Assembly (NCBI RefSeq): GCF_035593305.1
Contig: NZ_CP141615.1
Span: 992,001 to 1,056,000 of the forward strand
DNA length: 64,000 nucleotides
Direction: 5' to 3'
From: Limnochorda sp. L945t
GTDB lineage: Bacteria; Bacillota; Limnochordia; Limnochordales; Geochordaceae
The position numbers were made by a program, and so were the translations under genes. Numbering within the stretch: the stretch's first letter is position 1; the number at the start of each line of letters is the position of its first letter. The notes beneath the pieces are model-generated. The model made no database searches, had not been told where the DNA came from, and saw only the letters and a list, made by a program, of their open reading frames with translations. Positions 49,176 through 59,579 of the stretch are shown piece by piece.

Positions 49176-49817
49176 ATTCCATCCGTGGGGGCGACCAACG
49201 GCAGGCGCCCGCTGCGAAGGTTTTTCAGCATCGGCCTGACCACCGCTGCCATCTCCGCCGTCCTTTCCATCTCGTCGAGCGGGGCGGCCAGCACGTTGGG
49301 GGTCGCGGCAGCCGTTGGGGCGCTGCTCCTGGTCATCGCCACGGGCATCCTCTTCGACGTGATCGGAGTCGCGGCCACCGCGGCGAGCGAGCGCAACTTC
49401 CACGCCATGGCCGCCGACAAGGTGCCGGGCGCGCCCCAGGCGATCTGGATCGTCCGCAACGCGGACCGGGTGGCCAACTTTGCCAACGACGTCATGGGAG
49501 ACGTGGCGGGCACCCTCTCGGGCGCCCTTGGCGCCGCGATCGTCGCCCAGCTCGTGCCCGGCGGGCCGCGCCTGCAGGAGCTCTGGGGAACGGCGGCCAT
49601 CGTCGCCGGCATCTCGGGGCTGACCGTGGGGGGCAAGGCGGCTTTCAAGGCGTTCGCCATCGGCCAGGCGGAGGCGATCGTCTTTCGCATGGGACGGTTG
49701 CTGGCCTCGCTGGAGCGATTGGCGGGCCGCTCCTTCGTCACGGGCGTAGGGCCGGCTCGCGCCTCCGCCTCGGCCCGCAGGCCGCGCGTGGCGGCGGGAG
49801 GGCGAGGCCGCCAGTGA
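49176..49817 (+). CDS. oapA: OapA, OLE-associated membrane protein
   Basis: Predicted membrane protein of about 210 residues with four hydrophobic segments: TTAAISAVLSISSSGAAS, GALLLVIATGILFDVIG, VAGTLSGALGAAIVAQL and AAIVAGISGLTVGGKAA. The segments GILFDVIGVAATAA, FHAMAADKVPGAPQA and NADRVANFANDVMGDVAGTLSGA match my memory of OapA (DUF21-related), the protein that holds OLE RNA at the membrane. A good AAGGAGG (49161-49167) sits 8 bases before an in-frame ATT at 49176; the first standard start, GTG 49185, is 17 bases away. I therefore list ATT. The last 30 residues are Arg/Ala-rich. Confidence 0.85.
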   Translation: MPSVGATNGRRPLRRFFSIGLTTAAISAVLSISSSGAASTLGVAAAVGALLLVIATGILFDVIGVAATAASERNFHAMAADKVPGAPQAIWIVRNADRVANFANDVMGDVAGTLSGALGAAIVAQLVPGGPRLQELWGTAAIVAGISGLTVGGKAAFKAFAIGQAEAIVFRMGRLLASLERLAGRSFVTGVGPARASASARRPRVAAGGRGRQ

Positions 49818-49828
49818 AGGGGCACAGC

Positions 49829-50698
49829 ATGGCGGGCAAGCCGGTGAAGCATCCCCGCGCCGACCAGGCGCTGGTGGAGCAGGCGCTGGCCAGGAGCCGG
49901 GAGGAGGCCCGGCAGCTGATCCTGATGGGAGCGGTGAGGGCCGGCGAGCAGGTGATCTCGCGCCCGGGCCAGCGCATCGACCCCGGCGTGAGGCTGGAGG
50001 TGGCCGGACCTCGCAACCCGTACGTGAGCCGCGGCGGGCTCAAGCTCCAGCGAGTGCTGGAGGAAGTGCCGGTACCGGTAGAGGGCGCGGTCTGCATGGA
50101 CGTGGGCGCTTCGACCGGCGGGTTCACCGACTGCTTGCTGCGACACGGGGCGCGCAAGGTCTACGCGGTGGACGTGGGTTACGGGCAGCTGGCCTGGAAG
50201 CTCCGCAACGATCCGAGGGTGGTGGTGCTGGAGCGCACCAACATTCGGTACCTGCCCCCGGAGCGGATCGGCGAGCCGCTGGACGTGATCACCGTCGACA
50301 CCTCGTTCATCTCCGTCACCCTGTTCCTGGCAAAGCTGCGGGCAATGCTCCGCCCGGAGGGATGGGCGGTGGTCCTGGTGAAGCCTCAGTTCGAGGCCGG
50401 GCGTGCGCAGGTGAAGCGGGGCGGGGTCGTGAAGGACCCCGGCGTGCATCGCCAGGTGCTGGAAAAGGTGGCGAGCTCGGCGGTCGAGGCAGGCTTTCGG
50501 GTCGAGGCCGTGCTGAGGAGCCCGCTTCTGGGCCCCAAGGGCAACCTGGAGTTTTTCGAGGTGCTGCGGCCGCTGGCTTCGAGAGGGAGCGCGGGCGTGG
50601 CGACCGGAGCGGCCACCGTCGACGCCATGATCGAGAGGGCGCTCGCCGAGCCTGCGCCGCGTCAGGAGGAGGCGGGGCAGCCACGGTCCGGAAGCTGA
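49829..50698 (+). CDS. tlyA: TlyA family rRNA (cytidine-2'-O)-methyltransferase
   Basis: An N-terminal S4 RNA-binding domain (RADQALVEQALARSREEARQ) is followed by an FtsJ/RrmJ-like methyltransferase fold: SAM motif MDVGASTGGFTDCLLRHGA, VYAVDVGYGQLAWKL, VVVLERTNIRYL, DVITVDTSFISVTL and the VKPQFEAGR block. 289 residues. ATG 49829 follows AAGGGG by 6 bases; a GTG at 49814 overlapping the oapA stop is an alternative. It follows the OLE-oapA pair as in other Firmicutes, but without dxs between. Confidence 0.93.
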   Translation: MAGKPVKHPRADQALVEQALARSREEARQLILMGAVRAGEQVISRPGQRIDPGVRLEVAGPRNPYVSRGGLKLQRVLEEVPVPVEGAVCMDVGASTGGFTDCLLRHGARKVYAVDVGYGQLAWKLRNDPRVVVLERTNIRYLPPERIGEPLDVITVDTSFISVTLFLAKLRAMLRPEGWAVVLVKPQFEAGRAQVKRGGVVKDPGVHRQVLEKVASSAVEAGFRVEAVLRSPLLGPKGNLEFFEVLRPLASRGSAGVATGAATVDAMIERALAEPAPRQEEAGQPRSGS

Positions 50699-51543
50699 TA
50701 CTGGCGCCTCACCGGGAAAAGCCCCAGGCGCTGAGGCTCGCCCTGGAACTGGTGGCGCCACTGAAGGCCCTGCACGCCGACGTCTACCTGGAGCGAGCCG
50801 CCGCCGAGGCTACCGGACGGCAGGATCTGGCCTGGCCGGGCGCGGACTGGCACGGGGCCGACGTGGTCGTGGTCTTCGGCGGGGACGGGGCGTTGCTCCA
50901 CGCGGCGCGCCAGGCGGCGCCCCAGGGCGTGCCTGTGCTGGGCGTCAACGTGGGGCGCCTCGGTTTCCTGGCCGAGGTGGAGGCGTCCGAGTTTCCGTCC
51001 ATGCTGGGCCGGCTGGTGCAGGGAGGTTTCGGCGTCGAGGAGCGCATGATGGTGGAGGCGGAGCTGATCAGGGCCGAAGGCCACGGTACCCACCGGTGGC
51101 TGGCCCTCAACGACGTGGTGGTGGCCCGCACCACCTACTCGCGCATCACGCGCCTGGAGGCGCGGGTCACGAACGACGTCATCGGGGCCTTCCCGGCCGA
51201 CGGGCTCATCGTGGCGACGCCCACCGGCTCGACCGCCTACTCGCTGTCCGCGGGCGGGCCCATCGTGCATCCGCTCCTGGACTGCTTCGTCATCACCCCC
51301 ATCTGTCCCCACTCCCTGGTGGCCCGTCCCGTGGTCATCCGGCCGGAGGAGACCATTACCGTGCTGGCCCACGGCCCCAGCGAAGATCTCGTGCTGACCG
51401 TCGACGGCCAGCTCAGCGAACCCATGCATCCGGAAGACGAGGTGGTGGTCCGGCGAGCTCCGTTCCGGGCGCGGCTCGTGCGGCTGTCGGGGCGCTCCCC
51501 GTACGCGGTGCTCCGGCAGCGGCTCAGCCATCCCGAGGTGTGA
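50683..51543 (+). CDS. nadK: NAD kinase (non-standard start likely)
   Basis: Phosphorylates NAD to NADP. Signature blocks are VFGGDGALLHAAR, VLGVNVGRLGFLAEV, LNDVVVART and ATPTGSTAYSLSAGGPIVHP. The conserved N-terminal strand (KLILAPHREKPQALRLA) begins near 50689, but no ATG, GTG or TTG exists between 50362 and there. The next in-frame GTG (50752) would delete it. I list ACG 50683, 10 bases after AGGAGG (50667-50672), as the best guess; CTG 50695 is another. An ATG at 50362 would add over 100 residues lying under tlyA. 286 residues fits the family. Confidence 0.88.
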   Translation, partial: TVRKLILAPHREKPQALRLALELVAPLKALHADVYLERAAAEATGRQDLAWPGADWHGADVVVVFGGDGALLHAARQAAPQGVPVLGVNVGRLGFLAEVEASEFPSMLGRLVQGGFGVEERMMVEAELIRAEGHGTHRWLALNDVVVARTTYSRITRLEARVTNDVIGAFPADGLIVATPTGSTAYSLSAGGPIVHPLLDCFVITPICPHSLVARPVVIRPEETITVLAHGPSEDLVLTVDGQLSEPMHPEDEVVVRRAPFRARLVRLSGRSPYAVLRQRLSHPEV

Positions 51544-51555
51544 CGCCGGGTCCCG

Positions 51556-52026
51556 ATGAAAGCACGGCGCCAGTCGGCCATCCTTCGGATCGTCCGTGAC
51601 GTGCCCGTCCAGACGCAGGAGGAGATCCTCGACCACCTGCGCCGGCAGGGCATCGTCGCCACCCAGGCCACCATTTCCCGGGACATCAAGGAGTTGCGCC
51701 TGGTGAAGGTGCCCACCCAGGACGGTCGCTACCGCTACGCGCAGGCGAGCGAGCCCGACCTGGCAGAGCGGCTCGCCCGAGCTCGGCGGGCGCTCCGGGA
51801 GTACGTGGTCCACGTGGAGGCGGCGGGGCACATCGTGCTGTTGCGCACGCTGTCCGGGACGGCCAACGCCGTGGCCGCCGCCCTGGACGCGCTCGACTGG
51901 CCCGAGGTGATCGGCACCATCGCCGGCGACGACGCCATTTTGATCATCGTGCGGCCCCGCCGGCACGCCGAAACCCTGGATCCCAACGCCGAGCAGGTCG
52001 TGCAGCGCATCTCGCAACTGCGGTGA
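51556..52026 (+). CDS. argR: arginine repressor ArgR/AhrC family
   Basis: Transcriptional regulator of arginine metabolism. Winged-helix N-domain with RQSAILRIVRD, TQEEILDHLRRQG and VTQATISRDIKELRLVKV (here ATQATISRDIKEL), and a C-terminal arginine-binding trimer domain with GTANAVAAALDALDWPEVIGTIAGDDAIL. 156 residues is usual. ATG 51556 follows nadK by 12 bases. The nadK-argR-recN order is conserved in Firmicutes. Confidence 0.94.
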   Translation: MKARRQSAILRIVRDVPVQTQEEILDHLRRQGIVATQATISRDIKELRLVKVPTQDGRYRYAQASEPDLAERLARARRALREYVVHVEAAGHIVLLRTLSGTANAVAAALDALDWPEVIGTIAGDDAILIIVRPRRHAETLDPNAEQVVQRISQLR

Positions 52027-52056
52027 GCGTCCATGGGTCAGTACGGAGAGAGTGCG

Positions 52057-53760
52057 ATGCTCGCAGAGCTCAACGTGGAAAACGTCGCCCTCATCGAGAA
52101 GAGCCGGCTCTCCCTGGGGCCGGGGTTCAACGTCCTGACGGGCGAGACGGGGGCCGGGAAGTCCCTCGTGCTGGATGCCCTGGGGATGGTCATCGGGCAG
52201 CGGGCAGGGGCCGACCTCATCCGCACGGGCGCGCAGGCGGCCCGGGTCGAGGCCCTGTTCGAGGTGCCCGCCTCTTCGGGGGTGGCGCAGGCGCTGGAGG
52301 CGGCCGGTTACCCACCGGAAGACGGCCAGCTGCTGCTGGCCCGAGAGATTCACCGTTCGGGACGGAACCGCTGCCGCATCAACGGGCGCCCGGCGACCGT
52401 CGGGGAACTGGCCCGGCTCGGCGCGCTGCTGGTGGACGTGCAGACCCAGCACGAAAGCCAGCGCCTCATGCTGGCTTCGGTCCAGCTCCAGCTGCTCGAC
52501 GCCTTTGCCGGCCCGGACGTGCTGGAGCTGGCAGGCCGGGTGGCGGACCTGTGGGGCCGGTGGAGCGCGGCCCGCTCCGAGCTCGAGCAGCTGCGCACCC
52601 GGGAACGGGAGCGGCTGCACGAGATCGACCTGCTGCGCTTCCAGATCCAGGAGATCGACGCCGCGGCCCTCCGCCCCGGCGAGGAAGAGGCGCTCATGGA
52701 CGAGCACTCGCGGCTCGCTCATGCCGTCCAGCTCCAACAGCTGTTGGGCGAGGCGCTGGAGCACCTGGGGGCAGGCGCTTCGTCCGGGGCGGACGTGGGG
52801 GCGCTGGCGCTGTCGGGGATGGCCCAGCGCCTCGTGCAGCAGGCAGCCTCGCTCGACCGGGCCCTCGAGCCGATCGGCCGCGAGCTTCTCGCCTGCACCG
52901 AGCAGCTCGGGGAGCTGGCGCGCGCGATGCGCCGCCACCTGGATCAATACGAAGTCAGGCCCGACCGCCTCCAAGAGGTAGTAGAACGCCTGGAGCTGAT
53001 CGACCGGCTCAAGCGCAAGTACGGCAACTCCGTCCGGGCGGTGCTGGAGTACGCGGACGCCGCCCGGCGCAAGCTCGAGGCTCTGGAGAGCGAGGGCAGC
53101 CGCGCCGGGCAGCTGCAGGCGGCGGTCGAGGAACTCGGGACGCGCTACGAGCAAGCGGCCGCCGAGCTCAGCCGGCGCCGCCAGGAGGCGGCGCAGAGGC
53201 TGTCGCGAGCGGTCGAGCGGGAGCTCGGGGAGCTCGCCATGCCCCGGGCGCGCTTCGAGGTGGCGGTCGCGCCTGACCAGCAGCCCGGCCCTTCGGGGCG
53301 CGACGGCGTGACCTTCCACTTCTCCGCCAACCCGGGCGAAGCGCTTCGGCCTCTGGCCAGGGTGGCGTCGGGCGGCGAGCTGTCCCGCACCCTCCTCGCC
53401 TGCCAGAGTGTGCTGGCCCACGTGCAAGAGGTGCCGGTGCTGGTCTTCGACGAGCCCGATGCGGGGCTCGGCGGGCGGGCGGCGCAGGCGGTCGGCGAGC
53501 GGCTGGCCCGGCTGGGGAGGCTGCGCCAGGTGCTGGTGGTCACCCACCTCCCCCAGGTGGCAAGCATGGCGGACTTTCACATCCGGGTCGAGAAAGTCGA
53601 CCGGGACGGGCGAAGCCTCGTCCAGGTACGTCCTCTCTCTCCTGGGGAGAGAATCGAGGAACTCGCTCGCATGCTGGGCGGGTCGACGATCACCGACTCC
53701 GCCCGGGTGCATGCCGAAGAGCTCCTGCGCCTGGCAGGCCAAGCCAAAGCGGCCGGATGA
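52057..53760 (+). CDS. recN: DNA repair protein RecN
   Basis: SMC-like ATPase for double-strand break repair. Walker A is GETGAGKSLVLDAL near the N-terminus. A central coiled-coil (about 160-370) follows, then the signature VASGGELSRTLLA and Walker B VPVLVFDEPDAGLGG near the C-terminus. ATG 52057, 6 bases after GGAGAG, places the start just before LNVENVALIE and gives 567 residues; ATG 52033 lacks a ribosome site. Confidence 0.95.
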   Translation: MLAELNVENVALIEKSRLSLGPGFNVLTGETGAGKSLVLDALGMVIGQRAGADLIRTGAQAARVEALFEVPASSGVAQALEAAGYPPEDGQLLLAREIHRSGRNRCRINGRPATVGELARLGALLVDVQTQHESQRLMLASVQLQLLDAFAGPDVLELAGRVADLWGRWSAARSELEQLRTRERERLHEIDLLRFQIQEIDAAALRPGEEEALMDEHSRLAHAVQLQQLLGEALEHLGAGASSGADVGALALSGMAQRLVQQAASLDRALEPIGRELLACTEQLGELARAMRRHLDQYEVRPDRLQEVVERLELIDRLKRKYGNSVRAVLEYADAARRKLEALESEGSRAGQLQAAVEELGTRYEQAAAELSRRRQEAAQRLSRAVERELGELAMPRARFEVAVAPDQQPGPSGRDGVTFHFSANPGEALRPLARVASGGELSRTLLACQSVLAHVQEVPVLVFDEPDAGLGGRAAQAVGERLARLGRLRQVLVVTHLPQVASMADFHIRVEKVDRDGRSLVQVRPLSPGERIEELARMLGGSTITDSARVHAEELLRLAGQAKAAG

Positions 53761-53832: not shown

Positions 53833-55197
53833 ATGGAAAGAGGCACCACCCTTCGGCAGCGCACCCGCGCACTGCTCTGGCCCTTGCTCCTGCTCCTCGG
53901 GCTGTCCGCTACGGGGCTTTTCAGCTGGCCCGGGCGCATTCGCGCCATCTCGGGGAACCCCGCGCTGTTGCCGGTGCCTCCCCCGGTCCGGGTCGCAGGC
54001 CCGGAGGACCGGGTCCTCATCAAACTCCACGACCGCCAGGGCGCCGTGGTGCAATTCGACCGCCCGGGCAGCGTGCGGCTGGAGCTCAGCCTGTTCGGGC
54101 TGTTTCCGTTGCCGCCCATGGTCGTGGACGTGGTGCCGCCCCTCGAGCTCGTGCCGGGCGGCCAGGCGATCGGGGTGTTGCTGGCGCCTCACGGCCTGGT
54201 GGTGGCGGAGATGGTGCCCGTGCGCGAGCCGTCCGGCCGGGTGCGCTACCCCGGGAAAGAGGCGGGGCTGCAGGCGGGAGACCTGCTGTTGGAGGCCGAC
54301 GGCCAGCTCCTGCGCCGCCCCGAGGACCTGACGCTCGCCATCCAGGGAGCTGGAAGCCGCGGGCGGCCGGTCGAGCTGCTGGTCGCGCGTGGCAATCACC
54401 GGTTCCGGACCAGCCTGCTTCCCTCTCCCATCCAGGAGGCCACGTCCCGGTCTGGCGGGCGTTCGCTGCGCAGCCGGGCCGGGTACACCGCCGGGGTGCG
54501 GTGGGTGGCAGGGCTCTTGGTGCGCGACACGGCCGCCGGCGTGGGGACGCTGACGTTCGTCGACCCTCGCACTCGCCGATTCGGAGCCCTCGGGCACATG
54601 ATCGTCGAAGCCGACCGCCGCCCGCTCGTGATGCCCGACGGGCGCATCGTACGGGCGGCGATCACCAGCGTGGCGGCCGGCATGCGAGGACGGCCGGGGG
54701 AGAAGGTGGGGGCGTTCGAGGACTCGCAGGGAGAGCTCGGCATCGTCGACCAGAACACGGCGGTGGGCATCTTCGGCCGGATTGTTCGGGATCCGCCCGC
54801 GGGGCTGGTCAACCGGCCGGTGCCGGTCGCCCTCGAGTCACAGGTGCGGGAAGGGCCGGCCACCATGCTCACCGTGCTGAGGGGCGAGCGGGTGGAGAGC
54901 TTCCAGATCGAGATCCTGCGCATCCGCACGCTGGGGGTGCCACCGTCGCAGCGCCTGGTCCTCCGGGTGACCGATCCGCGCCTGTTGGAGCAGGCGGGCG
55001 GCATCGTGCAGGGGATGAGCGGCAGCCCCATCCTGCAGGACGGCCATCTCGTGGGTGCCGTGACCCACGTGGCCATCCAGGAGCCGAGCCGGGGATTCGG
55101 GGTGCTGATGGAAGCCATGGCGGAAACCGCGGGGCTGTGGAAGGTTCCCGGAGGACAGGTGGGTCGGGCGGAGAACAAAGCTGACCGCGCCGCTTAG
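53833..55197 (+). CDS. spoIVB: SpoIVB serine peptidase
   Basis: Forespore protease that signals activation of pro-SigK processing in B. subtilis. An N-terminal helix (ALLWPLLLLLGLSATGLFSW), a PDZ domain (GKEAGLQAGDLLLEADGQLL) and an S55 peptidase domain with catalytic His in FGALGHMI and catalytic Ser in GMSGSPILQDGHLVGAVTHV. 454 residues is close to the family norm. ATG 53833. The recN-spoIVB-spo0A order is the standard one. Its pathway partner sigK is also in this window, about 24 kb away. Confidence 0.94.
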   Translation: MERGTTLRQRTRALLWPLLLLLGLSATGLFSWPGRIRAISGNPALLPVPPPVRVAGPEDRVLIKLHDRQGAVVQFDRPGSVRLELSLFGLFPLPPMVVDVVPPLELVPGGQAIGVLLAPHGLVVAEMVPVREPSGRVRYPGKEAGLQAGDLLLEADGQLLRRPEDLTLAIQGAGSRGRPVELLVARGNHRFRTSLLPSPIQEATSRSGGRSLRSRAGYTAGVRWVAGLLVRDTAAGVGTLTFVDPRTRRFGALGHMIVEADRRPLVMPDGRIVRAAITSVAAGMRGRPGEKVGAFEDSQGELGIVDQNTAVGIFGRIVRDPPAGLVNRPVPVALESQVREGPATMLTVLRGERVESFQIEILRIRTLGVPPSQRLVLRVTDPRLLEQAGGIVQGMSGSPILQDGHLVGAVTHVAIQEPSRGFGVLMEAMAETAGLWKVPGGQVGRAENKADRAA

Positions 55198-55245
55198 CAA
55201 ATGCCGGGCGCTTCGGTGAGTTCTCTCCACGAGGGGGGTCGAAGA

Positions 55246-56064
55246 ATGCAACCGTTTTTCGTGGTGCTCAGCGACGATGCCCAGGGTTTCGGCCGGGCGG
55301 TAGCAGAGAGGCTCCAGCAGGACCCAGCGTTCGGGCCGGTGCGCCTGGCCCAGAGCGCCGCGGAAATGGAGCGCCTGCTGGCGGAGTCGCAGGAGGGGCC
55401 GCCGCACGCGGTGCTGCTGGACCTGGCGCTTCCCGGGCTGGGGGGGCCCTCTGGGGCCGAGAGGCTCACCTCCTGGTGGCGCCATCATGCCCGGCGCAGG
55501 GGGGCGTCGCCGGACGACAGGCCGGGGCCGGAGCGGTGGATCGTCGTCAGCCCCGTGGGCGACGACTCGGTGGTGAGCGCGGCGTACGGGTGGGGGGCCG
55601 ACTACTTCGTGGTGCGGCCTTTCGACGTGCCGACCCTGGTGGAGCGCCTGCGGCAAATGCTCACGGGGGCCCGGCCGGCCGGGCGGCGTGACCGGGAGCG
55701 CAAGCGGCGGGAGCTCGAGAGCCGGGTCGTGCGGTACATGGAGGACCTGGGCGTACCCCCACACTACAAGGGCCGGGCCTACCTGAAGGACGCCATCGTC
55801 ATGGTCGTGGAAAACCAGGAGCTCTTGCACAGGGTGACCAAAGACCTCTACCCGCGTATCGCCGCGATGCACCACACCTCGGCGTTCAAGGTCGAGCGGG
55901 CCATCCGTCACGCCATCGAAAGCACGGTGGCCCGGGGCAACCTGGCGCTCATCGAGTCCATGTTCGCCCACCTCATGGACGAAAACCGGACGCGCCCCAC
56001 CAACTCCTCGTTCATCGCCCGCATGGCCGACCAGGTGCGCTCGGACATCGCCCGAAGCGCCTGA
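55246..56064 (+). CDS. spo0A: sporulation master regulator Spo0A with an atypical receiver
   Basis: Response regulator that starts sporulation. The receiver has Asp10-Asp11, the phospho-acceptor Asp59 (VLLDLALPGL) and Ser102, but the normally invariant switch Lys is Arg124 (FVVRPFD). It also has an insertion of about 15 residues (near 78-96). The effector domain is clear: GVPPHYKGRAYLKDAIVMVV, TKDLYPRIA, KVERAIRHAIESTVARGN and the PTNSSFIARMAD end. ATG 55246, after GAGGGGGG, gives 272 residues; ATG 55201 is in frame but lacks a ribosome site. Confidence 0.92.
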   Translation: MQPFFVVLSDDAQGFGRAVAERLQQDPAFGPVRLAQSAAEMERLLAESQEGPPHAVLLDLALPGLGGPSGAERLTSWWRHHARRRGASPDDRPGPERWIVVSPVGDDSVVSAAYGWGADYFVVRPFDVPTLVERLRQMLTGARPAGRRDRERKRRELESRVVRYMEDLGVPPHYKGRAYLKDAIVMVVENQELLHRVTKDLYPRIAAMHHTSAFKVERAIRHAIESTVARGNLALIESMFAHLMDENRTRPTNSSFIARMADQVRSDIARSA

Positions 56065-56149: not shown

Positions 56150-57334
56150 GTGGAAGCGGCGCGGCTTGCGTTCCCGGGCGGAGCGGCCAGGGATGGCCGG
56201 CCGATCCAGGGCCGGGCTCGCCTGGACTCCCTCACGAAGCGCCTCGCCTTGCGGCTGAGGCCCGGTGAGATCGCGGTCATCGCCCACCGGGACCTGGATG
56301 CCACCACCGCGGCCGGGCTGGCGGAGGCGCGGCCGGCGGCGGTCGTCAACGCGCTGTGCAGCCTGACCGGAAGCGTGCCGGTGGAGGGGGCCCTGGTCCT
56401 GGCGCGGGCGGGCGTCCCGGTGGTGGACGAGGTCGGCCGGGCCATTTTCGAGCGGGTGCGAGACGGCCAGATCGTGCGGGTGGACGGAGCGACGATCCGC
56501 GATCGACAGGGTCGGCCGCTGGGGCGCGGCATACGCCTGAGCGCCCGCGACATCGAGACGCGGCTCGAACTGGCCCGCCGGCGGCTGGCCCCGCTCGCTT
56601 CTGCCTTCGTCGACAACACCATCGCCTACGCCCAGAAGGAGAAGGCCCTCCTCACCGAGCCGCTGGAACTCCCGCCCCTGTCGACCCCCATTCGCGGGCG
56701 CCCGGCCGTGGTGGTCGTGCGGGGGCAGGGGTACCGCCAGGATCTGGCCATGATCGCTCCGTTCATCCGCCGCGCCCGCCCCGTCCTGATCGGTGTCGAT
56801 GGGGGAGCGGACGCGCTCTTGTCGGCAGGGTGGCGGCCCGACGTGGTCGTGGGCGACATGGACTCCGTGAGCGACCGGGGGCTGCTCGAGTCCAGGGAGC
56901 TGGTCGTCCACGCCTACCCCGGCGGGCCTGCTCCGGGGCTCGCCCGGGTGCGCAGGCTGGGCCGGTTCGCTCACGTGCTGCCGGCGCCGGGCACGAGCGA
57001 AGACGTAGCCCTGCTGCTCGCCCACGGGGCAGGGGCCGTGATGATCGTGGCGGTGGGTACCCACACCGGCTTTCTCGACTTCCTGGAAAAGGGGCGTGCC
57101 GGCATGGCCAGCACCGTGCTGGTTCGCATGCGAGTGGGCCACCTGCTGGTCGACGCGAGGGGATTGGCCCGGCTCTATGATCCTGGCCCCGGCTGGGTGC
57201 CTTACGTGTCGCTGGCAGCTGCCGCCCTCTCCTCCCTGGGGGCCGTCGCCCTGGCCTCCGAGGGGCTCCGAACCCTGCTCCGCTTGTTGTGGCTCCGGGT
57301 GCGGGCGGGGATGTGGGTGGGAGGGGTGGGGTGA
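56150..57334 (+). CDS. SteA-like protein (cytokinetic-ring / thiamin pyrophosphokinase-like fold)
   Basis: 394 residues. An N-terminal domain with GEIAVIAHRDLDATTAAGLAE and ALCSLTGSVPVEGALVLARAG is followed by a thiamin pyrophosphokinase-like region: LIGVDGGADALLSAGWRPDVVVGDMDSV and the PGTSEDVALLLAHGAGA block. One or two C-terminal helices (YVSLAAAALSSLGAVALAS) would anchor it in the membrane. In Corynebacterium SteA acts with SteB in cell division. The following gene is SteB/MctB-like, supporting the call. Start GTG 56150, following CGAGGAGAG. Confidence 0.82.
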   Translation: MEAARLAFPGGAARDGRPIQGRARLDSLTKRLALRLRPGEIAVIAHRDLDATTAAGLAEARPAAVVNALCSLTGSVPVEGALVLARAGVPVVDEVGRAIFERVRDGQIVRVDGATIRDRQGRPLGRGIRLSARDIETRLELARRRLAPLASAFVDNTIAYAQKEKALLTEPLELPPLSTPIRGRPAVVVVRGQGYRQDLAMIAPFIRRARPVLIGVDGGADALLSAGWRPDVVVGDMDSVSDRGLLESRELVVHAYPGGPAPGLARVRRLGRFAHVLPAPGTSEDVALLLAHGAGAVMIVAVGTHTGFLDFLEKGRAGMASTVLVRMRVGHLLVDARGLARLYDPGPGWVPYVSLAAAALSSLGAVALASEGLRTLLRLLWLRVRAGMWVGGVG

Positions 57335-57341
57335 GGCCATC

Positions 57342-58121
57342 GTGATCCCCGATGTCCGCCAGCACAGCCTGACGCTCGCAGCCGTCTTCGTCGCGCTCGC
57401 GGTCGGCGTGGCCGTAGGCACGGCCGGTGCGGGAGGCCATCTCCTGGCCGGGCAGGAGAAGGTGATCGTCCAGCTCGAGCAGCGCTTCGCGCAGCTCGAG
57501 GAGCAGATCCGCCGCGCCGCCGAGGAGAAGGAGGCACTCCGGGCCCAACTCGAGCGGTATCGCCTGGCGGTGAAGGACCTCCTTCCGGCCGTCGTCGCCC
57601 GGAGCCTGGACGGGCAGAGCGTGGAGGTGATCGCCGTACCCGGGGCCCGGGCCGCGGGCGTGCAGGTGGAGTCGCTGCTGCGCGCTGCGGGCGCGAGCGT
57701 CCGGCTGGTGGTGCCCCGCACGGGGCCTGCCCCGGTGAGCGCCGGCGCTGCACACCTCCTCGTCGTCGGCCCCTGTAGCCGGGTCGTGGGGCTCGTGGGG
57801 GCCGGGGACGACCCCAGCTCGTCGCCGGGCGATCGGGCCCGGCAAGCCATCCTCTGGGCCTCTTCCAGCGCAAGCTTGCCGGCGTCACCCGTCACGGCGA
57901 CGGCGTGGGTCGACGCCGTGGACGAGCCCCTCGGGCAGGCAGCGCTGCTCGCGGCCCTCGTCGAAGGCCGGGAGGGGCAGGTGACGGAGGAGGAGGCGAT
58001 CCGCTGGCTTGAGCGCGTCCACGCGGGCGAAAGCGGTGAGCGCGGTGGTCCCTGCGTTCAACGAGGCGGGCCGGGTGGGGCCGACGGTACGCGCCCTGTG
58101 GACGGTGCCGGGCGTTCGTGA
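57342..58121 (+). CDS. SteB/MctB-like (copper transporter family) membrane protein
   Basis: 259 residues: one N-terminal helix (TLAAVFVALAVGVAVGTA), a coiled-coil (about 35-75, EKVIVQLEQRFAQLEEQIRRAAEEKEAL) and an extracytoplasmic domain with SLDGQSVEVIAVPGARAAG. This is the MctB (PF11382) layout. Members were named as copper transporters in Mycobacterium, while the Corynebacterium homologue SteB works with SteA. GTG 57342 begins 7 bases after steA. The last 30 residues overlap the next gene by over 80 bases and look unconserved. Confidence 0.8.
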   Translation: MIPDVRQHSLTLAAVFVALAVGVAVGTAGAGGHLLAGQEKVIVQLEQRFAQLEEQIRRAAEEKEALRAQLERYRLAVKDLLPAVVARSLDGQSVEVIAVPGARAAGVQVESLLRAAGASVRLVVPRTGPAPVSAGAAHLLVVGPCSRVVGLVGAGDDPSSSPGDRARQAILWASSSASLPASPVTATAWVDAVDEPLGQAALLAALVEGREGQVTEEEAIRWLERVHAGESGERGGPCVQRGGPGGADGTRPVDGAGRS

Positions 58122-58737
58122 GGTCGTGGTGGTGGACGACGGCTCGTCCGACTCCACGGCCGAGGAGGCGGCCGAGGCAGGGGCCCGCGTCGTGAGACTG
58201 CAGCGCCACGCCGGCAAGTCGGGAGCGTTGCGCGCGGGGTACCGGGCGGCCGGCGGGGAGGTCCTGCTGCTGGCCGACGCCGACCTGGGCCCCTCGGCCG
58301 CGTCGCTGGCAGCTCTGTGCGCGCCCGTGGCCGGCGGGGACGCGGACATGGCGGTGGCCATCCCCATGGTGCGCTCCGGCGGAGGGCTGGGATTGGTGCG
58401 GGGGCTCGCCGGCTGGGCGGTGCGCAGGATGGGAGGGTGGCAACCCAGGGCGGCCCTGTCCGGCCAGCGGGCACTGCGGGCCGAGATCGCCCCCGCGTTG
58501 CTCGAAGGCCCGGCCCTGCGGTTCGGGGTGGAGCTGCAGATGAGCATCCGGGCCGGGCGGTTGGGCTTGCGCGTGGTCGAGCTCGAGGTGCCGTTCACTC
58601 ACCGGGCGACGGGGCGGGACCTCGGCGGCTGGCTGCACCGGGGCCGGCAGCTGCGGGACGTGGCCTTCACCCTCTGGCGCCTGGCGCGCTCGGGAGAAGA
58701 CGGGGCAGGGACGGAAGCGCCATGGCGACGGTCGTGA
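58009..58737 (+). CDS. family 2 glycosyltransferase
   Basis: 242 residues of GT-A fold: VVPAFNEAGRVGPTVRAL, the nucleotide-binding VVVVDDGSSDSTAEEAA, GKSGALRAGYRAAGGEVLLLADADLG with the DxD-like Asp pair, and a C-terminal conserved GQRALRAE. No membrane helices, so it is a cytoplasmic transferase likely using a lipid acceptor. TTG 58009 or GTG 58036 could be the start; the latter is closer to the conserved strand. It overlaps the end of the SteB-like gene, which suggests a tightly coupled cassette. Confidence 0.86.
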   Translation: MSASTRAKAVSAVVPAFNEAGRVGPTVRALWTVPGVREVVVVDDGSSDSTAEEAAEAGARVVRLQRHAGKSGALRAGYRAAGGEVLLLADADLGPSAASLAALCAPVAGGDADMAVAIPMVRSGGGLGLVRGLAGWAVRRMGGWQPRAALSGQRALRAEIAPALLEGPALRFGVELQMSIRAGRLGLRVVELEVPFTHRATGRDLGGWLHRGRQLRDVAFTLWRLARSGEDGAGTEAPWRRS

Positions 58738-59579
58738 GACGGGTCGCGGGGGCGGCCCTTTCGTGGGGAGCGGTGCGCTGGGGGACGCCCCTGGTGGCAA
58801 GAGCGGCGAAGGAGATCGGGCTCGTTCGGGCCAGCCGCCGCGGCACACGGGTCCCCACGGCCGCCGGAGCGGCGACGACCGCCGCCTCGGTGGCCGGAGC
58901 TCTGGTGAGCGGCGCCGGTCAGGGCTTGCCCCCGGCTTACGGGCCGGTCGTCGTGGCGACCCTGGCGGGCCTGCTGGACGATGTCTCGGCCGGCCAGGGG
59001 CCGAGAGGATGGAGGGCCCATTGGAGGGCCTGGAAGGAAGGCCGGCCCCGCACGGGAATCCTCAAGGCAGCCGGCATCGTACTGGCCGCCGGCGCGGCGG
59101 GGATGGCCGTCGCGCGGCAAGCCGGCATCGCCCGGGCGGGCTTGAGCGCGGCCAGCGCCGTGCTCGGGGCCAACTTGCTCAACCAACTCGACACGGCTCC
59201 CGGGCGCTCGGCCGGCGCCTATCTTGCCGGGATGGGCTTGCTCGCCCTGGCCGCAGAGCCCGGCCGGCGCGGCGCCTGGTGGGACGTGTTGCCCGTCAGC
59301 GCGGCCGTGGCCGCTTATCTACCCTACGACCGCCGGGGCGAGGCGATGCTGGGCGATGCGGGGGCCAACGCCCTGGGGTCGGCCCTGGGGTGGACGGCGG
59401 GCCAGTGCCTTCCGTTGCCGGCGCTGATCGCCTGGGTGGCCGCGCTGGCCGGGCTCAACGTAGGCCTGGACCGCTGGTCGCTGAGCAGCTTCTTGGAGGG
59501 GCATCCGAAGCGCCCCTTCCGGTGGGCGGTGCTGCAGGAAGGCCCGCTCGCGCGGCTGCGCGCGAACGCCAGGGGCTAG
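58722..59579 (+). CDS. MraY/WecA-like membrane protein (GT4-type phosphotransferase relative)
   Basis: 285 residues with about six to eight short hydrophobic segments. Two motifs recall the polyprenyl-phosphate sugar-1-phosphate transferase family: LAGLLDDVSAGQGP (the Asp-Asp motif) and RRGEAMLGDAGANALGSALG (the second Asp in a Gly-Asp-x-Gly). Parts in between are degenerate, so the activity is uncertain. The upstream frame is a shadow of the glycosyltransferase; ATG 58722 overlaps its end. Together with the GT2 it may build a lipid-linked sugar. Confidence 0.7.
   Translation: MATVVRRVAGAALSWGAVRWGTPLVARAAKEIGLVRASRRGTRVPTAAGAATTAASVAGALVSGAGQGLPPAYGPVVVATLAGLLDDVSAGQGPRGWRAHWRAWKEGRPRTGILKAAGIVLAAGAAGMAVARQAGIARAGLSAASAVLGANLLNQLDTAPGRSAGAYLAGMGLLALAAEPGRRGAWWDVLPVSAAVAAYLPYDRRGEAMLGDAGANALGSALGWTAGQCLPLPALIAWVAALAGLNVGLDRWSLSSFLEGHPKRPFRWAVLQEGPLARLRANARG

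Follow-up and report, generated by a model that had tools for sequence, protein, structure and literature searches.

A SteA-SteB locus with two sugar-transfer genes next to spo0A in Limnochorda sp. L945t

What are two sugar-transfer genes doing beside steA and steB, immediately downstream of spo0A? The question is raised by a run of four genes located on the plus strand at positions 56150-59579 of a 64,000 nucleotide stretch of Limnochorda sp. L945t DNA (contig NZ_CP141615.1, positions 992,001 to 1,056,000), hereafter called the window; the genome carrying it is a single contig of 3.31 Mb. The run encodes a SteA-family protein, a SteB/MctB protein, a short GT2 glycosyltransferase and a divergent protein of the MraY/WecA/DPAGT1 fold, here denominated MraYL. 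All frames are open and collinear, and the genes overlap or nearly touch each other. The gene mraYL is found almost exactly where SteA occurs. An earlier reading made from the sequence alone had described SteA- and SteB-like genes followed by two sugar-transfer genes after spo0A, and this description is confirmed by the frames, family tests and synteny. That the four genes are a conserved, non-random set linked to lipid-sugar enzymes is upheld by loci from the same class, from other Bacillota and from actinobacteria. The locus is presented here as a fuller version of the SteAB system.

Conservation of the gene set and co-occurrence of mraYL with SteA

Within the class, SteA was found in 40/41 genomes, and in 36/36 of those passing the quality filter. 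The order tlyA-nadK-argR-recN-spoIVB-spo0A-steA-steB-gt2-mraYL is maintained in all 37 class loci, apart from genes unscored or lost at contig ends; gt2 and mraYL are absent only from L065, which ends at a contig end. The phylum was represented by 150 Bacillota genomes, evenly drawn, 99 of which host a full SteA, and the same gene order, with local changes, was found in 74 further fetched Bacillota loci. Because the order is the same in all 37 class loci and, with those changes, in these 74, the four-gene arrangement is far beyond chance. In 15 Bacillota loci no steB lies between steA and gt2, and steA, gt2 and mraYL remain adjacent; true loss of steB was considered for these loci and rejected for 13 of them, in which the gene sits elsewhere in the genome. 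Three loci (L095, L108, L126) lack gt2, and here steA, steB and mraYL remain together. In L133 (genome G046) an in-frame TAA in steA cuts off the membrane helix and steB was not found in the genome; this may be a decaying copy.

The set is also hosted by Actinomycetota, where steA, steB, gt2 and mraYL are contiguous in about 20 of the 40 loci fetched first. Nearly all of 40 actinobacterial loci other than mycobacterial retain tlyA-nadK-recN-steA-steB; eight mycobacterial loci, M. leprae included, feature the same five genes, followed by neither gt2 nor mraYL. The genes argR, spoIVB and spo0A are absent from the deep-actinobacterial block, and genes encoding PyrG, NUDIX and XerD proteins are found downstream. 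In ten actinobacterial loci (L230, L237, L243, L251, L252, L258, L259, L260, L264, L265) a gene encoding the flippase MurJ, usually accompanied by a GT4 gene, lies between steB and mraYL. MurJ was assigned by Pfam, and the single protein tested against TIGR01695 scored 266.6 bits (cut-off 235.6). The same loci usually hold also a large unannotated membrane protein of ~770 residues; the one tested had no Pfam match. In SteA trees the two phyla fall on opposite sides of one well-supported branch (99-100% in the Shimodaira-Hasegawa-like approximate likelihood ratio test, SH-aLRT), which fits old vertical descent. Trees of mraYL and gt2 feature too many long branches and too little support to order the deep splits. 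The four-protein set is common to Bacillota and Actinomycetota, and its distribution points to an ancient origin.

Matches to mraYL above 140 bits were obtained in 54/59 SteA-positive and 0/61 SteA-negative actinobacterial genomes. The latter figure becomes 1/61 if a borderline match of 108 bits in the SteA-negative genome G295 is counted (Fisher p 6e-27 for 54/59 versus 1/61; co-occurrence counts in both phyla are uncorrected for kinship). In Bacillota, mraYL was detected in 110/110 informative SteA loci, meaning those not cut by a contig end, versus 1/46 SteA-negative genomes (G165). The separation is clean, as generic MraY and WecA proteins score less than 55 bits with the mraYL profile.

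The pocket of SteA resembling that of thiamine pyrophosphokinase (TPK) varies along with mraYL, being intact in all cases where that gene is retained. In the window protein it is marked by the motifs VDGGADAL, GDMDSVSD and GTSED, and is more TPK-like than the pocket of M. tuberculosis SteA. The motif GD[MFV]DS is found in SteA from 111/111 Bacillota and 53 actinobacterial loci, nearly always alongside VDGGADAL and TSED. Degenerate pockets (GDPDQ, GNPDE, GNPTG and others) are found in SteA from the genomes lacking mraYL (M. leprae and those of L255, L261, L262 and L281), in other mycobacterial SteA and in C. glutamicum SteA.

The four proteins and their neighbourhood

The steA product can be assigned with certainty to the SteA family by sequence comparison. 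It scores 417.8 bits with the curated model NF040608 (cut-off 150) over model positions 1-367 of 369, and matches the PDB entries 9hmy (M. tuberculosis SteA, E 2.5e-55) and 9hmz (E 4.8e-39). The domain reading given in Table 1 is taken from the structures described in PMC12977500. The C-terminal membrane helix is present as a hydrophobic tail, the best 19-residue hydropathy having a median of 2.47 in loci with steB; the match to PF12555 is under the cut-off of that family. The C domain scores 29.7 bits with the TPK family PF04263, just below the cut-off of 30.7 and over 33/113 profile positions. It features the same GVDGGA..L..PD..VGDMDS motif as TPK, from which SteA differs in carrying an additional N domain and a membrane helix. 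We know of no TPK activity of SteA.

The steB product scores 73.7 bits, above cut-off, with the Pfam family MctB (PF11382) over residues 4-121, corresponding to the N-terminal helix and the coiled coil, and helices are modelled at residues 5-29 and 33-84. The family profile matches solved structures over the soluble domain (M. tuberculosis SteB 9hle, E 1.1e-19; C. glutamicum SteB 8au6, E 1e-15). For the protein of M. tuberculosis, arguments against a role of MctB as copper transporter have been published (PMC12977500). The gt2 product is a certain GT2 family member by its score with PF00535 (73.5 bits, cut-off 23.3). Its best PDB matches are dolichol-phosphate mannose synthase and ArnC-type enzymes, the nearest being the dolichol-phosphate mannose synthase 5mlz (E 5.9e-8). 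It has the same GT-A catalytic motifs, DDG.SD and DAD being retained, and differs from these enzymes in consisting of the catalytic domain only; conserved columns are D34 D35, D81 x D83, S142 G Q R, and H201 R202 Q205.

MraYL is borderline in sequence searches, scoring 26.8 bits with PF00953 (cut-off 27) and 27.6 bits in another search; one homologue scored 29.5 bits with TIGR00445, far from the cut-off of 192. Its modelled fold is clearly that of MraY/DPAGT1. The AlphaFold model (predicted local distance difference test, pLDDT, 90) is matched by Foldseek to MraY and DPAGT1 structures with probability 1.00 and template modelling (TM) scores of 0.56-0.67, including 0.64 for DPAGT1 6fwz and 0.67 for MraY 8cxr. 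An alignment of 60 homologues shows no variation at D86, D87, K115, N154, D157, P160, R162 and D212. Alignment with the MraY and WecA-type proteins of ordinary kind, which the window genome also encodes, indicates that the DD, NxxNLxD and GD motifs are retained. MraYL differs from MraY/WecA/DPAGT1 transferases in being shorter, in having DLRPGRA (DTAPGRS in the window protein) in place of the DGLDG region, in lacking HHH/HxH, and in occurring almost only with SteA. The sequence-only reading had called the protein degenerate, which holds for the overall sequence and the C-terminal sugar loop but not for the catalytic aspartates. MraYL may be read as a working transferase whose sugar specificity is unusual, or as a receptor that binds the carrier.

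The genes steA and steB are separated by 7 bases, and gt2 and mraYL overlap by 16 bases. The gt2 start was placed by alignment to relatives, and the resulting overlap with the steB tail, 86 bases in different frames (58036-58121), is unusually long. A scan of the locus for promoters and terminators detected nothing above chance.

Table 1. Genes of the four-gene run and upstream neighbours, in window coordinates
Feature	Position	Strand	Description
steA	56150..57334	+	SteA-family protein, 394 amino acids; swivelling-type N domain, thiamine-pyrophosphokinase-like C domain, C-terminal membrane helix
steB/mctB	57342..58121	+	259 amino acids; long coiled coil preceded by a single membrane helix at the N-terminus; C domain divergent
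gt2	about 58036..58737	+	GTG start; short GT2 glycosyltransferase, about 233 amino acids, DPM1/ArnC-like
mraYL	58722..59579	+	285 amino acids; divergent polyprenyl-phosphate hexosamine-1-phosphate transferase (MraY/WecA/DPAGT1) fold
spo0A	55201..56064	+	directly 5' of steA; Spo0A_C 111.5 bits; synteny
spoIVB	53833..55197	+	upstream neighbour; TIGR02860 337 bits
tlyA, nadK, argR, recN	49814..53760	+	upstream; older part of the block

Genes for DUF3866, NUDIX, SpoIIM and XerD proteins recur, in different loci, downstream of mraYL in Bacillota (L076-L149); DUF3866 is uncharacterised and conserved in the block. The receiver domain of the Spo0A encoded in the window, weakly matched by PF00072 (30.6 bits), has Arg at the position of the conserved switch Lys (VVRPFD). 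Within the class this residue is Lys in 29/37 loci and Arg in 7/37, and in other Bacillota it is Lys in 60/62 loci. A second Spo0A_C match was found in the window genome (G000) and in several relatives, which suggests a Spo0A paralogue.

A possible septal checkpoint and its alternatives

A SteAB complex, the control of RipA by SteAB, and the stabilisation of C. glutamicum SteA by guanosine and uridine diphosphate (GDP and UDP) have been reported in actinobacteria (PMC6705760, PMC12977500); the two nucleotides stabilised C. glutamicum SteA only, not M. tuberculosis SteA (PMC12977500). The SteAB-RipA system of Mycobacteriales (M. tuberculosis Rv1697/Rv1698, C. glutamicum cg1603/1604; PMC6705760, PMC12977500) relies on the same SteA and SteB families, encoded by adjacent genes, and tlyA-nadK-recN are found upstream in mycobacteria as in the window. 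The window and most non-mycobacterial genomes examined feature two sugar-transfer genes and an intact pocket (GDMDS in the window), whereas at the mycobacterial locus neither gene is present and the SteA pocket is degenerate.

We tentatively propose, giving it slightly less than an even chance, that the locus encodes the Bacillota version of an ancient membrane module made up of four proteins, in which SteA reads a lipid-linked glycan step and signals via SteB to septal wall cutting. MraYL, perhaps with GT2, would load the polyprenyl-phosphate carrier with a sugar at the cytoplasmic face, and the TPK-like pocket of SteA (GDMDS ... TSED) would bind a nucleotide or nucleotide-sugar from this lipid-sugar step. 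The state of the pocket would be relayed via the transmembrane helices of SteA and SteB to the outer coiled coil of SteB, which would position a cell-wall hydrolase at the septum, and wall cutting would thereby be tied to the supply of lipid-linked glycan. The reaction ascribed to MraYL and GT2, the SteA ligand, the coupling and, for this organism, the hydrolase are parts that we infer. With somewhat greater reserve, SteA and MraYL may be viewed as the core of an ancient, as yet unrecognised checkpoint, in which a cytoplasmic sensor of a nucleotide or nucleotide-sugar monitors a dedicated sugar step on the lipid carrier and gives a signal through the membrane that permits hydrolysis of the septal wall. 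The mycobacterial and corynebacterial version, the only one studied, would be a stripped descendant, in which the sugar enzymes were lost and the pocket decayed.

Some observations weigh against this proposal. Loss of mraYL and pocket decay amount, on the SteA tree, to a single evolutionary coincidence, because the degenerate-pocket sequences form one Mycobacteriales-like clade, which lacks mraYL and in which the motif is degenerate in all sequences; examination of 17 more actinobacterial loci for independent pocket decay or mraYL loss brought to light only one event. In MraYL a Pro takes the place of the second Asp in DGLDG and a C-terminal His motif is lacking, and the protein may not be a normal enzyme. 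A fold search with the model of the window SteB itself, of moderate quality (pLDDT 82), gave no meaningful PDB match, and the C domain was not recognised. Finally, and differently from the SteAB-RipA system, a RipA-type partner hydrolase is not evident in the window genome, in which NlpC/P60 gave a single weak match of 29.5 bits in a 265-residue frame.

The missing residues and the short C-terminus of MraYL could also denote a catalytically dead protein, acting as membrane receptor for a lipid carrier or lipid-linked sugar read by SteA, GT2 being the sole enzyme. This would suit the closest partner of SteA, retained without gt2 in several lineages; the aspartates matching the catalytic DD and GD of MraY are however invariant along with a lysine, which argues for metal-diphosphate chemistry, and a dead MraYL looks distinctly unlikely. 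The four genes might alternatively be adjacent only as part of an old housekeeping block, unbroken from tlyA to xerD, having no functional link to each other. Unrelated neighbours are indeed conserved too, both tlyA, nadK and recN on one side and NUDIX, DUF3866, xerD or pyrG genes on the other. Mere inertia of the block has against it the co-occurrence of mraYL and SteA genome-wide rather than locally, the retention of steB in 13 of the 15 genomes in which it left its place, the gene overlaps, and the decayed SteA pocket in the clade lacking mraYL, and is regarded as unlikely.

Adjacency of steAB to spo0A in Bacillota, mainly Clostridia, is already published and is not new; a role in sporulation was suggested on that occasion (PMC12977500). 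In this scenario SteAB and both enzymes would act at the asymmetric septum or in engulfment, under Spo0A. In most Bacillota loci the genes lie directly 3' of spo0A, a SpoIIM gene is found further downstream in 21 Bacillota loci, and in the phylum sample Spo0A is found in 98/99 SteA-positive versus 32/51 SteA-negative genomes, kinship uncorrected. Yet 32 of the 130 Spo0A-bearing genomes lack SteA, and Actinomycetota host the same set in loci devoid of spo0A and spoIVB. In L101, L105, L110, L136 and L139, where the four-gene set persists, spo0A is either no longer linked to steA or inverted relative to it, and L111 (genome G079) keeps spoIVB-steA-steB-gt2-mraYL although Spo0A was found neither in the locus nor in the genome. 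In L136 and L139 spoIVB and spo0A are inverted between recN and steA, which shows that the two genes can be relocated together. The set is accordingly not restricted to Spo0A-bearing organisms. The idea of a spore-former module marked by spo0A, put forward in the sequence-only reading, is not supported by these data; as main explanation, a spore-former-specific module was rejected after actinobacterial synteny, and a sporulation role appears improbable. Loss of the set in closely related spore-formers, which that reading had regarded as adverse to itself, is not borne out within the class, where SteA is in 40/41 genomes, but is borne out across the phylum, provided that Spo0A marks sporulation. 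Most likely, the position next to spo0A is inherited gene order, because mycobacteria keep tlyA-nadK-recN-steA-steB without spo0A, and the block needs no spo0A. The natural inference from spo0A to sporulation has to be corrected in this case.

Within the proposed SteA-MraYL module, the glycosyltransferase partners, the mraYL-SteA co-occurrence, the MurJ insertion and the pocket pattern were not found in the searchable literature; a search that left most subscription papers outside its coverage retrieved no link of SteAB with MraY or glycosyltransferases. Most non-mycobacterial SteA proteins examined have an intact TPK-like pocket and are accompanied by a divergent MraY-fold transferase, a GT2 protein and sometimes MurJ. 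The survey points to where the ligand and the input of SteA, a cell-separation regulator of the tuberculosis bacillus, may be sought. If the proposal is true, dividing cells would couple the cutting of their wall to a sugar step on the lipid carrier, and would do so by a route different from that of FtsEX.

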